Source: Terriglobia bacterium
GTDB taxonomy: Bacteria > Acidobacteriota > Terriglobia > Terriglobales > Acidobacteriaceae
Direction: 5' to 3'
Assembly (NCBI GenBank): GCA_020073665.1
Contig: JAIQEU010000004.1
Coordinates: 372,001 to 436,000, forward strand
DNA: 64,000 nt
This document shows, one piece after another, positions 39,567 through 47,385 of this stretch (the first letter of the stretch is position 1; every line of letters begins with the position of its first letter). A model generated the notes under the pieces. The model was given only the letters and a program-made list of their open reading frames with translations. It did not search any database and was not told where the DNA came from. Position numbers and translations under genes: made by a program.

Positions 39567-42242
39567 ATGGAAACCGTCACCGGGACGAGAATCCGCGACT
39601 TCAGGGTCCGCGGAAACTACTTTAACTGGCGCAGCCTCCTGTCCCGCCGGGACCTGCACTCTTCGAAGAGAGAAAATGTAGTTCCGAACTATCCTGGATA
39701 TTCTCCTCCCGTCGTGGACTTCGGCCTTAACGACGGCACAACCAGCAGTATCACGGTCGGCGAATCCGATATCCCTCTTCTGTGTGACGATGATACGGAG
39801 AAGGCGAAGAGATACCTTTCCCTGATTCTGCAAGCCCGTCAGGGCGACCCCGGCGCCGCCAAAGAGCTGTCTTCCGCCGCGCAGGAATATCCGTTTGGAG
39901 GAGGGGGGCGTATCCAGCCCTCCGAAAGCCCCTTCGTGGTTCCCTGCACCAGCAGTCAGGCCCACTCCGAGCAGGCCATAAGTCAAAAAGCGTTCATACT
40001 TCTGAAACTGTGCCAACTCGGCTATCCCGTGCCGGACTTTGTTGTGCTTACCGCGCAGGCCTACATCGATCGGGCTCAGCATCTTGAGAAGCATTTTGCG
40101 GAGGCCCTTAAGCAACTCGAGATCGTCACCATGCAGAACCTGGGGGATGACCGGAGCCCGCTGGTGTTCGCCATCCGCTGCGCCACGGGTCACTACATTC
40201 CTGGAGTCATGGACACCTACCTCAACGTCGGGGTGACGGAGAAAACGTTGCCCTGCCTGGAGAGGATGTATGGCCGGGTTGCCGCACACAAGATGTTTCT
40301 GAATAACTTGAGGAACCTCTGTCACGCGCTCGACCGTGACGAGTACGCGCCGGTGGTCAGTGCCGTCAGGTCTGACCTCTCTCCTGATGAGGTCGCCCGG
40401 TTAGTGGAGCAGATGTCAGATATTCTCGGGAAAACTGACCGAAGACTCATCGAGGATCCGTTTGCGCAAGCCGCCTTCTTGGTAGGACAGGCCTACAAGC
40501 ATTTTGAAGAGAACCAGGAACTCGTACTCGCACTCTGCCGAGGAACGGAACATTATCCCAGCCTCATTCTGCAGAAAATGATCTGCACGGTCCGGCACGA
40601 AAACGCTTATGCCGGCGTCATCTCCAGCCGCCATACTCAGACGGGATTGGGTAGAGAGCTCCAGACCGCCCGCAATATCTTCGGCGAAGAAATGATGACG
40701 GGAGCGGCGGAGGTCGAATCCACCGTTTTTGGGGACAGAGAGGCCATTAAGGGCGTCTTTCCTGCCGTGTATCACTTCGCCCCCCATCTTTCCGATCTTG
40801 AAAGAGAGTTCGAGTCTCCGGTGACCATCGAGTTCGCCGTGGAAGCAACGGAAAGGTATCAGTGGTTTGCGCTCCTGCAACTCAATGAAACCGGAATGGC
40901 AGGTCGAGCCGCCCTCACCTCGGTGGTGGACATGCATAAGTCGGGGACGATAACCCGCCAACGGGTGGCCGAACTCATCCGGCCCTACCACATCCGGCAG
41001 CTGACCAGCGACACCATCGACCAGGAGGTTTTCGACACGCTCCACAGTTTCTGTTCCGGCGTGCCCGTTCTACCCAGATCCGCCGTGTCGGCTCGCGTTT
41101 ATTTCACGGGCGAAGACGCTTTGCGAGCCAAGAGCCAGGGAGAGAAGGTGTGCCTGTGTAAGAAGAACTTTGTCCCGACCGACACGGTCGTGATGCGCGA
41201 AGTGGACGCAATCATAAGCCTGACCTCGGCTGCCATCCATGTGGTCACGATCTGCCAAAGCCTGGGTATCCCAGCCCTGCTGAACCTGGAGAAGAACGGA
41301 GTTTCGTTACAGCCGGGTGGTGGCCTGGTCAATTGCCGGGGAAAGGAAATCAAGGAAGGAGACTGGATCACGATTTCGTCGAGACGCAGATCCCTCTACG
41401 AGGGGAAAGCCAAGTTCACGCCAGCGAGGCTCTTGCGCTACATGAAAGGGGAACCGGTCCAGATGGACGAGGATGAAAGAAGAGCCTTCGCTTCCATCGC
41501 CTACGCGTACCGCTACTACCAGCAGCTGACCAGGGGCCTCGAGGTGGACCAGATTTCCACCCTCAGCGAAGTTACCCGGCTGGTGAATTTCGAACTCCGC
41601 GGGGAATCCGAGGAGGCAAAGCAACTTGTAAACGGCTGGTTCGACGACCGCGAGACCCTGTACATGGAAGAGGTTTTGAAAAGCGATATTGGCGACCACC
41701 TGGGGCAAAGCAACGTCTTCGACCGGCTCACCCTCGACCGGAAGGTCAGGTTCTTCAAGGCGGCTCTGGCAAAATGTTCCCGCAATCATATCTCCGGCTA
41801 CGAGGCGGGTGCCTTCATGCTGGGCCGGTTCTTGTCTTCGCGCTATCCCGTCGCTTTCTGGAAGTGCTTCAGCCCCTCAGAAATCGGTTTGCTGGTGAAC
41901 GAGTGGGTTCTCTTCGAGAAGTACATGCAGCTTCTGCACAACGTGGGCGAGAGGAAAGTCCTTCTGGCTCGTAAACAGATTCTCAAGGACGGGCTCGGCC
42001 AGATCGCGCTTCACCCGGGCAACGTGCAGTGCCTCATCACGCTTAAGCTGAGCGGCGCACGCTTAGAGGAGGCCCGGGAGTCCCTGCCCACATGGACCGA
42101 TCCCCAGTCCGTGAGGGTGCTGGAGCTTCTGCAGCAACCCTACCGTGCTTTTTATGACTTCAATGCAGCCTGGTCCGTGAGCCAGCTCGAGAAGATCTGC
42201 CGCGAGGAAAACCTTCCCCTTCCCCGTCCGGAAGCCACCTAG
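39567..42242 (+). CDS. PPDK-like protein without PEP/pyruvate barrel
   Basis: 891 aa. Residues about 130-450 match the N-terminal nucleotide domain of pyruvate phosphate dikinase: ISQKAFILLKLCQLGYPVPDF, SPLVFAIRCATG, HYIPGVMDTYLNVGV, GRAALTSVVDMHKSGTITRQ. Residues 500-620 match the phosphohistidine domain (VLPRSAVSARVYFTGEDAL, AIHVVTICQSLGIPAL, KEGDWITIS); His558 aligns with the catalytic His of PPDK's TSHAA motif. From about 630 to the end the PEP/pyruvate TIM barrel is absent, replaced by some 260 helical residues I cannot assign. Without the barrel it cannot make PEP by the normal mechanism. No clear SD; ATG start is the first plausible. Its stop shares CTAG (42239-42242) with the convergent M50-enolase gene. 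Confidence 0.85.
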   Translation: METVTGTRIRDFRVRGNYFNWRSLLSRRDLHSSKRENVVPNYPGYSPPVVDFGLNDGTTSSITVGESDIPLLCDDDTEKAKRYLSLILQARQGDPGAAKELSSAAQEYPFGGGGRIQPSESPFVVPCTSSQAHSEQAISQKAFILLKLCQLGYPVPDFVVLTAQAYIDRAQHLEKHFAEALKQLEIVTMQNLGDDRSPLVFAIRCATGHYIPGVMDTYLNVGVTEKTLPCLERMYGRVAAHKMFLNNLRNLCHALDRDEYAPVVSAVRSDLSPDEVARLVEQMSDILGKTDRRLIEDPFAQAAFLVGQAYKHFEENQELVLALCRGTEHYPSLILQKMICTVRHENAYAGVISSRHTQTGLGRELQTARNIFGEEMMTGAAEVESTVFGDREAIKGVFPAVYHFAPHLSDLEREFESPVTIEFAVEATERYQWFALLQLNETGMAGRAALTSVVDMHKSGTITRQRVAELIRPYHIRQLTSDTIDQEVFDTLHSFCSGVPVLPRSAVSARVYFTGEDALRAKSQGEKVCLCKKNFVPTDTVVMREVDAIISLTSAAIHVVTICQSLGIPALLNLEKNGVSLQPGGGLVNCRGKEIKEGDWITISSRRRSLYEGKAKFTPARLLRYMKGEPVQMDEDERRAFASIAYAYRYYQQLTRGLEVDQISTLSEVTRLVNFELRGESEEAKQLVNGWFDDRETLYMEEVLKSDIGDHLGQSNVFDRLTLDRKVRFFKAALAKCSRNHISGYEAGAFMLGRFLSSRYPVAFWKCFSPSEIGLLVNEWVLFEKYMQLLHNVGERKVLLARKQILKDGLGQIALHPGNVQCLITLKLSGARLEEARESLPTWTDPQSVRVLELLQQPYRAFYDFNAAWSVSQLEKICREENLPLPRPEAT

Positions 42243-44635
42243 ATCGCATGGGCCACTTCAAGGACCACCACCGCTGACTTGATCCCGTAGAGATGATCGC
42301 GGTCAATCGTCGATTCCATCTCGCGCAGCACCTCGGGAAGTTCCTTACCGTCCCTCGCGGCCACCAACCGCCCGAGTGCGAGTGAGAGCGACAGGACCGC
42401 ATTCATGCCCAGATTCGCCTTTCTCTGCATGATCTGGATCTTCTCTTCTGCCGAGGCGAGACAACCCTTACCGCCGTACCGTTTGGCCCTCATCCACAGG
42501 TCTGCCAGTTCGCGATTCTCCTTCGTGATCGTCTCCCCCTTGATGTTGCCGGCGAAGCGATAGGTTTTCTCTTTTTCCTTGAACACGAAATAGTTGGGGA
42601 ATTTTCGCGTCAGGGGATTGGCCTCGATGATGCTGTCCACCAGGTGGACCGCCTCATCCGTCCCCGCCGAGGTGCCCAGGGGCGTGGCCGCAGTAAATTT
42701 CATCCCGTTGTCGAGCATGACCACAACTCCCACCGTCGGTATGCCGGCGTTGGTCGGCTCCTCGTGAGCAGAGATGTCGGCGATGGTGATATCAGGATCG
42801 AGTTTCCGGGTAATCTTTGTACCTTTCTTCGCCATTTCCATCAGCTCGACGATTCTTCCGTACTTGACCAGCCTCTCCGTGTTCGCCCCACCCCCACATT
42901 TCAGGCCCAGGGCGCCAACCGCGAAACTGATGTCGGCTTCCATAACCTCGTTGGGAGACTTGGATCGGTGCGAGACCACCAAGGCAAGCCCCAACTGCTT
43001 CGCCTTACGAGTGGCCAGCAGGGTCTCACTGAGAGTGCCGATCTGGTTGGCCTTGATCAAGGCAGTATTGATGAGCCCCTGTTCGGCGCATTTCTGGATG
43101 GTCGAATCCTTGGTCGTAACCAGATCGTCCCCGATAATGAGGATCTCCTGGTCGAGGGCTTTCATAAGTTTCTTCCAGCCCTCGAAATCATCCTCCGCGA
43201 AGGGGTCTTCCAAAGAAACGATAGGATATTTCTTGACCCAGCGAAGGTACAATTCCACCATTTCGTCCGTGGTTAAGACCTTGGGATCCTCGGCTCTCCA
43301 GAAGAGGTATTGGCCAACCGACTCTTTCTCGCCGGTTTTCTCCCGGTAGGCATTGCTGAGTTCGCTGGCGGCGGGATCGAGCGCGAGACAAACGTCGCGG
43401 TCGGGGACAAATCCGCATTCTTCGATAGCTTGGACGGCTACCCTTAGTGCCCTCTCTTCCGGGAGCAGGTCACCCTCCTGCTTGGCGTAGGAGGCGACGA
43501 TGCCTCCCTCCAGGCCAATACCCACAAAATTGAGCCCTTCCGTGTCTTGGATAATCTGGATCGCCCGGCTTTGCAGCAGGTTGGTGACCCGTTGGGCCTC
43601 AATGTAGTCCTTGGCGGTAAGTGGTAGGAACATCAACTCCTGGAAACTCAGGTTGCCGCCCATTTCTTCGGTGTGGCGACCACCCATGATGGAGTTCCGG
43701 AACTCCCATGGGGCGAACACGAATGTTCCGTCGGCGAGTTCCAGTTCCTGAAGCCGGTGCAGCCGCAGCTTACGCCTGAGTTCGGATGGCTTGACCGGAC
43801 GCGCTTCTTGCGTTTCGCGAGCCGGTTCTGCCGCCCTCACTTCCGCCGCCTTGGCCGCCGCCTCTCGCTGCCTCTCCCGGAAAGCCTTGTATTTCCCTGC
43901 GTCCGAGAGCAGGAAGTCGAAGAGCGCCACAACGCCAACGGTGAACAGCAACCTTCCCCCGTAGACCGCCGCCGGATACGCTCTGTACAAGCCAAACAAT
44001 ATCAGGGCGATTCCTGGCAAGAACGTGGCCTGGCTGAGCACTTTGCTCGCCTTTGGCCCCGCGGCCGAAACCGCCAGGTTCTGGGTCTTGACGCCGGGGT
44101 GGTAGCTCCCCGACTCCTTATGTACCCCCTGAAAGGCTCCGTACGGGATCTTCACGAACATCTCGACATACCAGAGCCACCTGCCCAGCAGGCCTTGCTT
44201 CAGTTTTTGCTCGGCAGGCCCCGCCAGCTCCGGTCTCAGGTTGTTGGTTTTGACGGCGGATAAGTAATGGCCCATCTCGTGGATGGCGATGTTCGAATGC
44301 CATGCTGCGTACCACATCAGGCAGGAAATCACCACTTCAACGCTCAGGAACATTTCACGCATCACATCGAATCTGGTTCCCACGTGAAGAGGGATGCTGA
44401 GCAACGAAGTCAGGAAAGCGGCATGAAAGGAAACCAGCTTATGGTTGGCGATGATCCAACCACGATCCAGACGCGGGGTGTCGCTCGGCGAGGGGATAAA
44501 TGTGAACATACGTCGCTCCGGGAGCCCGCGCAACGATCGACCGATCCCGGTCAAGAACTGTTTCCAGCGAATACCGGCATGTCGATGCATAACGTTAACA
44601 AGGGGACCTTCAAACGGCGCGCGGGGCTTCAGCAT
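42239..44635 (-). CDS. M50-like membrane metallopeptidase fused to a circularly permuted enolase
   Basis: 798 aa from the ATG at 44633-44635 (GGAG 6 nt before); an upstream TTG adds ten codons. Residues about 60-250 are a membrane region with HEMGH at 119-123 and ALFDFLLSDAGKY at 237-249, resembling M50 peptidases. After a charged linker (255-300), residues about 305-600 are an enolase barrel: GGRH (H321), FQE (E333), LEGG (E376), ALD (D420), SLED (E476), GDD (D503), IKANQIGT (K528), SHRS (556-558), GLK (K579). Residues about 615-775 are the enolase N-terminal domain, out of normal order: NAGIPTVGVVVMLDNG, PLGTSAGTDEAV and RYGGKGCLASAEEK. The catalytic set is nearly complete, so activity is plausible. 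Role unknown. Confidence 0.88.
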   Translation of the reverse strand: MLKPRAPFEGPLVNVMHRHAGIRWKQFLTGIGRSLRGLPERRMFTFIPSPSDTPRLDRGWIIANHKLVSFHAAFLTSLLSIPLHVGTRFDVMREMFLSVEVVISCLMWYAAWHSNIAIHEMGHYLSAVKTNNLRPELAGPAEQKLKQGLLGRWLWYVEMFVKIPYGAFQGVHKESGSYHPGVKTQNLAVSAAGPKASKVLSQATFLPGIALILFGLYRAYPAAVYGGRLLFTVGVVALFDFLLSDAGKYKAFRERQREAAAKAAEVRAAEPARETQEARPVKPSELRRKLRLHRLQELELADGTFVFAPWEFRNSIMGGRHTEEMGGNLSFQELMFLPLTAKDYIEAQRVTNLLQSRAIQIIQDTEGLNFVGIGLEGGIVASYAKQEGDLLPEERALRVAVQAIEECGFVPDRDVCLALDPAASELSNAYREKTGEKESVGQYLFWRAEDPKVLTTDEMVELYLRWVKKYPIVSLEDPFAEDDFEGWKKLMKALDQEILIIGDDLVTTKDSTIQKCAEQGLINTALIKANQIGTLSETLLATRKAKQLGLALVVSHRSKSPNEVMEADISFAVGALGLKCGGGANTERLVKYGRIVELMEMAKKGTKITRKLDPDITIADISAHEEPTNAGIPTVGVVVMLDNGMKFTAATPLGTSAGTDEAVHLVDSIIEANPLTRKFPNYFVFKEKEKTYRFAGNIKGETITKENRELADLWMRAKRYGGKGCLASAEEKIQIMQRKANLGMNAVLSLSLALGRLVAARDGKELPEVLREMESTIDRDHLYGIKSAVVVLEVAHAI

Positions 44636-44925: not shown

Positions 44926-44957
44926 GAGAGGGAGTTCCGAGCTGGGAACTCCCTCTC
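44926..44957 (-). terminator. Terminator of the malic enzyme gene
   Basis: 13-bp perfect stem GAGAGGGAGTTCC / GGAACTCCCTCTC with loop of six, followed on the minus strand by TTTTGG. It lies 125 nt after the maeB stop. Confidence 0.75.

Positions 44958-45081: not shown

Positions 45082-47385
<2,304 letters not shown>

Follow-up and report, generated by a model that had tools for sequence, protein, structure and literature searches.

Does a single bacterial gene encode both an M50-like membrane peptidase and a circularly permuted enolase, and, if so, what might its product do? The question is raised by a gene in a 64,000-nt stretch of DNA from a Terriglobia bacterium (NCBI GenBank assembly GCA_020073665.1, contig JAIQEU010000004.1, positions 372,001 to 436,000 of the forward strand), hereafter termed the window; positions below are counted from its first letter. 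An earlier sequence-only reading had described the gene as such a fusion, with the enolase barrel placed before the enolase N-terminal domain. The gene (42239..44635, minus strand) is a single open frame of 798 codons with an ATG start, and an in-frame TTG lies 30 nt upstream of this ATG. A residue check found HEMGH (residues 119-123) and all enolase motifs where that reading had placed them: GGRH at 318, LEGG at 375, ALD at 418, SLED at 474, GDD at 502, IKANQIG at 527, SHRS at 555, GLK at 577, NAGIPTVGVVV at 629, PLGTSAG at 652, and RYGGKG at 719. Pfam matched Enolase_C at residues 309-600 (E 4e-56), followed by Enolase_N at residues 618-766 (E 9e-9; 36.0 bits vs. a cut-off of 35), which confirmed the barrel-first order. 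On the minus strand, the M50-like membrane domain, with several hydrophobic segments, covers approximately residues 60-265 (43841..44458; PF02163 in relatives, hhalign, and hydrophobicity) and contains HEMGH, the M50 zinc-binding motif (44267..44281). The enolase TIM barrel with its catalytic residues follows (42836..43711; Pfam, residue alignment, and the model of an ortholog), and then the N-terminal domain (42338..42784; Pfam and alignment), in which PLGTSAG, the equivalent of the Ser39 loop, is kept. The presence of an M50-like domain and a circularly permuted enolase in one gene of the window is a confirmed observation.

Related fusions were found in other genomes (loci and genomes are denoted by L and G numbers, respectively). 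A protein search of all genome contigs revealed near-full-length fusions at 13 of the best 80 loci (L033-L045), in Terriglobia and other Acidobacteriota, two Elusimicrobia, and one WOR-3 bacterium; the other 67 loci matched the enolase part. Two further fusions were found among 60 relatives. The membrane part alone, used as query, matched 12 of the 396 genomes searched in the window's phylum, including the window's own; one of these (G161) gave a weak partial match (E 3e-4) and was not counted as a fusion. An alignment of the membrane part matched 19 of 147 genomes of the WOR-3 phylum, all with E≤1.2e-80, and 1 genome strongly and 12 weakly among 247 of the Elusimicrobia phylum; the weak matches that were inspected were RseP-type M50 proteins. 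The M50 profile gave a single weak match, and no strong one, in each of two further phyla, those of G450 (297 genomes) and G449 (291 genomes). The genome search proposed in the sequence-only reading thus yielded a family of 42 fusion proteins from three phyla: Acidobacteriota, Elusimicrobiota, and the WOR-3 phylum. Genomes of the window's phylum were assigned to Acidobacteriota through the closest named relatives of the window. This set includes L196, which is cut at a contig end, and excludes L197, in which the fusion is split over contigs; L136, judged to lie on the contig of L042, was excluded before counting.

A profile of ordinary enolases placed the N-domain after the barrel in 41 of the 42 members, the remaining one being the truncated L196, and both PF00113 (Enolase_C) and PF03952 (Enolase_N) were matched in all 37 members scanned (E≤0.001). 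Because the same order recurs in 41/42 proteins from many assemblies, we rejected chance joining and the possibility, raised earlier, that two genes had been joined by an assembly error. In a tree based on the barrel only (seven rows dropped beforehand, long branches flagged), 38 permuted rows were separated from 16 ordinary enolases by one branch with support 100/100, which fits a single permutation event. The window-type clade (17 rows, 98/95) included both Elusimicrobia rows, and the WOR-3-phylum clade (19 rows, 100/100) included four rows from G279, G151, G257, and G169. These placements suggest transfer between phyla.

The catalytic residues were examined after the 42 proteins had been rotated to normal order and aligned with 19 ordinary enolases. 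Eleven positions, with residue numbers that we take to be those of yeast enolase (His159, Glu168, Glu211, Asp246, Glu295, Asp320, Lys345, His373, Arg374, Ser375, and Lys396), were identical in 41 of the 42 members; the equivalent of a twelfth, Ser39, was kept in 40 of the 41 testable members. All twelve were kept in the window copy, in agreement with the claim that its catalytic residues are preserved. All twelve, together with the HExxH motif, were also invariant in the 37 rows of a family alignment termed A3, from which L131 and a few near-copies were excluded. The permuted barrel was ~34-40% identical to ordinary enolases.

The sole exception, at all twelve positions, was L131 (1-2911, minus strand) in genome G146. 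This protein is a second fusion copy in a genome that also has an intact one; it lacks the enolase catalytic residues and also the Glu of HExxH (HMMGH). It is possibly an inactive partner subunit. The joint loss of the enolase and protease sites suggests, but does not prove, that the two sites work together.

An AlphaFold2 model was obtained for the ortholog L033 (792 residues, 37 sequences), to which the window protein is 90% identical; mean pLDDT was 84.5 and pTM 0.82. The barrel of the model (residues 245-548) superposed on PDB enolase 9no4_I with Z 35.6 and rmsd 2.2 Å over 283 residues. After the barrel, the model showed three strands and then helices, as in the enolase N-domain. The structure alignments to PDB enolases spanned residues 241-549, and the swapped N-domain lay outside them; some Foldseek rows of 420-441 columns had rmsd near 25 Å, as expected if the structure aligner follows chain order. 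The superposition on enolase that had been proposed therefore bears out the barrel; that the permuted N-domain would pack on it as the enolase cap is read from model confidence only.

Whether the permuted protein serves as an enolase in the cell was approached through its occurrence. In a PF00113 search of 30 fusion-bearing genomes, the permuted protein was the only match in 10: G318, a 100%-complete genome of the window's phylum in 8 contigs, and nine genomes of the WOR-3 phylum. G448 is an eleventh genome in which it was the only enolase found. Phosphoglycerate kinase (PGK) was found in all 11 of these genomes, and therefore lower glycolysis is present in them; it was also found in the window's genome. 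G318 is the strongest single case, because the completeness of the WOR-3-phylum genomes was not stated. G146 had a fragment of an ordinary enolase at a contig end, and G714, in which the fusion is cut off, had no Enolase_C match. Turnover of 2-phosphoglycerate (2-PG) by the family is likely, because its members are the only enolase found in 11 genomes, and the family is probably a working membrane-tethered enolase. The preserved catalytic residues and these only-enolase genomes make a pure pseudo-enolase unlikely.

The membrane part is supported as M50-like, that is, as kin to M50 peptidases, which agrees with the sequence-only reading. Alignment of the membrane part with RseP-type M50 proteins by hhalign gave 96% probability; in the control, a single sequence of an unrelated membrane protein from the window, the value was 0.5%. 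Of 19 members, 14 matched PF02163 at E≤0.01 (best 8.6e-6); the Pfam scan of the window protein gave no PF02163 match at E≤0.001. HExGH was conserved in the family, with HExAH in L130, L132, L182, and L183, and an AGP motif and two Asp residues were conserved as well. His62, Glu63, and His66 of HExxH (A3 numbering) were invariant in 37/37 rows and lie in a helix (residues 42-72) in the L033 model. Other polar residues of the membrane part were likewise invariant in 37/37 rows, among them Asp183 and Asp188 (A3), which are candidates for the third zinc ligand. The M50-like domain is a probable protease.

The window copy differs from its relatives in one respect. It lacks 49 residues after RYGGKGCL (an in-frame loss of 147 nt, at 42457..42458 on the minus strand, located by the family alignment), a place where 40/40 other members with an N-domain have at least 47 aligned residues. 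The missing piece was not found in the window's own genome by a weak search, in which the query flanks, present in the window gene, went unmatched too. The loss may have arisen by real deletion or by assembly collapse. The source genome is a 5.4-Mb assembly of 62 contigs, stated to be 100% complete, and it also encodes an ordinary enolase on a different contig; it thus has both kinds. The window copy may be impaired. Because an ordinary enolase is present and 49 residues of the capping domain are lost, the enolase half in this bacterium may be sensing or decayed. The earlier suggestion that the protein binds or turns over 2-PG is thus likely to hold for the family and doubtful for the window copy. 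That reading had mentioned neither this gap nor the gene that adjoins the fusion.

The adjoining gene (39567..42242, plus strand; 891 aa) is convergent with the fusion gene, and the 3′ ends of the two overlap by 4 nt. Its product resembles pyruvate phosphate dikinase (PPDK). The nucleotide-binding (ATP-grasp) part (residues 121-451; 39927..40919) matched PPDK 1dik with Z 30.8 over 319 residues, and the partner family profile matched PPDK with E 3e-35; against Pfam PPDK_N, with its cut-off of 27, the window partner scored only 21.5. His558 (41238..41240), aligned with the PPDK phosphohistidine, was invariant in 15/15 sequences, with the surrounding TSH motif changed. The partner differs from PPDK in having Asn at the equivalent of what we take to be PPDK Arg337, and in its C-terminal part (41424..42239), which is helical where PPDK has the barrel for phosphoenolpyruvate (PEP) and pyruvate. 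No PPDK profile match extended beyond residue 618, and Pfam revealed no PEP/pyruvate barrel at E≤0.001. The partner model had pLDDT 68.6 and pTM 0.51 and was poor in the His domain; the helical C-terminal part was predicted with modest confidence.

All 18 window-type loci (the window, G015, G026, L033-L044, G130, G177, and G318) had a convergent PPDK-like neighbour. In L044, ~2 kb separate it from the fusion gene, and in L040 and L041 only the end of the PPDK-like gene is on the contig. A different PPDK-like part of ~1160 residues is joined in frame to the fusion C-terminus in three distant Acidobacteriota (G279, G257, and G169), giving proteins of 2158, 2064, and 2039 aa, respectively; in G151, whose genus code is that of G279, this part is the next gene, 20 nt on. 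These fused or adjacent parts (L126-L129, with a protein of 1179 aa in L128) keep GGSTSHAA or GGSSSHAA and a conserved Arg, and no PEP/pyruvate barrel was found in L126 and L128 (Pfam, E≤0.5). Of 7 other loci in the window's phylum (6 genomes), 4 thus have a PPDK-like part, either fused or encoded by the next gene. Sequence identity between the two PPDK-like types, in the parts that BLAST aligns, is only 20-24%; a partner of this kind therefore seems to have become linked to the enolase fusion on more than one occasion. The C-terminus of the window-type partner was found in 8 of 396 genomes of the window's phylum; two of these (G388 and G432) gave no match to the M50 part. Strict co-occurrence of partner and fusion was rejected, since no fusion gene accompanied the partner homologs in the stretches fetched from G388, from G432, and from another place in G257. 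Full-length partner homologs (~39%) with no enolase fusion beside them occur at L208:8094-10754, L209:6719-9415, and L210:7602-10310; the partner family is broader.

The explanation that we favour overall, with a probability of about 55%, is that the family is a genuine enolase held at the membrane by an M50-type domain, that its domain order goes back to one ancient permutation, and that its soluble block gates the protease. The protein would interconvert 2-PG and PEP at the cytoplasmic membrane, with the enolase turning over its substrate on the inner, cytoplasm-facing side. The permutation would have swapped the enolase domains, so that the barrel came to follow the membrane linker and the capping N-domain came last. 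The M50 domain would be a working protease of the site-2 (S2P) type, and occupancy of the soluble block by 2-PG or PEP, perhaps via the PPDK-like partner, would control the entry of substrates to it. This gating step follows the example of other S2P proteases, in which the linker and the soluble domain may have such a role; by analogy, the enolase block could report 2-PG/PEP to the protease. Several findings weigh against this explanation. The NCBIfam enolase equivalog cut-off of 300 bits (TIGR01060) was not reached (window 228.7, L033 240.8, L126 225.7, L183 208.3, and L131 62.9 bits), even when L033 was rotated to normal order (243.4 bits), and for this reason enolase specificity could have shifted. 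An ordinary enolase was also present in 18 of the 30 fusion genomes searched, and, as no completeness was stated for the WOR-3-phylum genomes, "only enolase" may partly reflect missing data there. On the protease side, the PF02163 cut-off of 27.2 bits was not reached where scores were shown (L033 19.1-20.6, L183 13.8), and a PDB sequence search of the M50 part found no relative (best E 0.97). The second M50 motif, which we take to be NxxPxxxLDG with the third zinc ligand, was not recognisable in the family, and the hhalign match ended before Asp183/Asp188. Finally, the PPDK link is not obligatory, because partner homologs occur without the fusion, and because no PPDK-like gene was found next to it in 18 loci of the WOR-3 phylum or, on their short contigs, in L130, L131, and L132.

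The points concerning the protease bear on a simpler explanation, in which the M50-like domain is an anchor only and the protein a plain membrane-tethered enolase that makes PEP at the membrane, e.g., beside the PPDK-like protein or PEP-using transport. It is compatible with the only-enolase genomes that have PGK, with the unrecognisable third-ligand motif, and with the Pfam M50 scores below cut-off; but an anchor would need neither HExxH nor the other polar membrane residues that are invariant in 37/37 rows, and the paralog without enolase residues, L131, has also lost the HExxH Glu. We consider this explanation doubtful. The converse proposal keeps the protease and dispenses with enolase flux: binding of 2-PG or PEP would switch an S2P protease that releases a membrane-held regulator. 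Conservation of the catalytic and binding residues suits a sensor, as does the ordinary enolase in 10 of the 12 window's-phylum genomes of the 30-genome search and in the window's own; two Elusimicrobia genomes also carry both kinds. S2P proteases with C-terminal CBS domains, the role of which is debated, offer a precedent (excerpt of PMC11486902). A pure sensor, however, need not keep the acid/base pair Glu211 and Lys345, and it would leave the 11 PGK-containing genomes with no enolase found other than the permuted one, so that we regard it as unlikely. That the window copy is a decaying or misassembled gene concerns this copy alone. It is the only one without the 49-residue segment found in 40/40 others with an N-domain, and an ordinary enolase is present in the same genome; but its 798-codon frame is open, all other motifs are intact, and it is 90% identical to L033. 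Decay or misassembly is very unlikely here, and in any case it would leave the reality of the family untouched.

The PPDK-like partner allows a further, highly speculative idea: a membrane phosphotransfer machine in which enolase would replace the PEP/pyruvate barrel of a dikinase, a phosphohistidine arm would swing between the ATP site and the permuted enolase, and the state of this relay would gate the site-2-type protease. Equally much of a long shot is the detail that phosphoryl groups would pass to or from 2-PG, PEP, or glycerate bound at the enolase. All parts of such a relay lie in one chain in G279, G257, and G169 (2039-2158 residues) and are divided between two convergent genes in the window.

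The favoured explanation, a membrane-held enolase with a gated protease, was compared with known systems. The family shares with enolase (phosphopyruvate hydratase, EC 4.2.1.11, TIGR01060; PF00113 and PF03952) the two domains, the catalytic residues, and the barrel fold (Z 35.6), and differs from it in the swapped domain order, the fusion to a membrane domain, and the score below the equivalog cut-off. The RNase E degradosome of E. coli holds a normal enolase near the membrane by non-covalent binding; enolase is likewise brought to the membrane by a partner there, whereas in this family the permuted enolase is covalently fused. With PPDK, the partner shares the nucleotide-binding part and the His aligned with the phosphohistidine, and the fused versions keep GGSTSHAA; the differences are that no PEP/pyruvate barrel was found and that the window-type partner has the helical C-terminus and Asn for Arg337. 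Among site-2 proteases with a C-terminal soluble domain, SpoIVFB and mjS2P have C-terminal CBS domains of debated role (excerpt of PMC11486902). As in these M50 proteins, the family has HExxH in a modelled membrane helix, a downstream AGP, and a charged linker to a soluble block; the block is a central-metabolism enzyme instead of a CBS domain, and no LDG motif is recognisable.

In titles and abstract starts of the open-access literature, we found no naturally permuted enolase, no fusion of a glycolytic enzyme with an intramembrane protease or of M50 with enolase, and no enolase-dikinase (PPDK) chimera; within this scope, the earlier statement that no precedent is known stands. Passages of PMC2575518 and PMC2876114 mention circular permutation and the enolase superfamily separately. 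As judged from sequence, the parts belong to known families, and what appears to be new is their combination in one protein. Should the family prove to be an active enolase, the lower glycolysis of some of these bacteria, which include soil and subsurface forms, would depend on an enzyme tethered to the membrane, and the 2-PG/PEP pool may be linked directly to S2P proteolysis. The family also provides a natural experiment in which an essential enzyme has been circularly permuted.

Other neighbours of the fusion gene were varied. In the window, a MaeB-type malic enzyme with malic and phosphotransacetylase domains (45082..47385, minus strand) lies upstream, and a terminator-like hairpin (44926..44957, minus strand) lies between it and the fusion gene; this hairpin was the one found in the region, vs. 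3.1 expected by chance. A promoter scan of the region found nothing. The malic enzyme was rejected as part of the unit: BLAST against the frames of 15 other loci, some of them with short flanks, found no match to it. By eye, a malic enzyme-like protein was recognised close to L128, a distant locus. Seven of the 17 loci fetched from the WOR-3 phylum (L182, L183, L188, L191, L192, L193, and L195) have an ordinary enolase gene directly downstream of the fusion and on its strand, and mixed oligomers of permuted and ordinary enolase are possible in those genomes. In G126, an ordinary enolase adjoins the fusion gene in convergent orientation. Proteins of ~550 residues with FWDIEKEKT-like starts were observed near the fusion in L185, L186, L187, L190, and L194 (cut in L194), all from the WOR-3 phylum.

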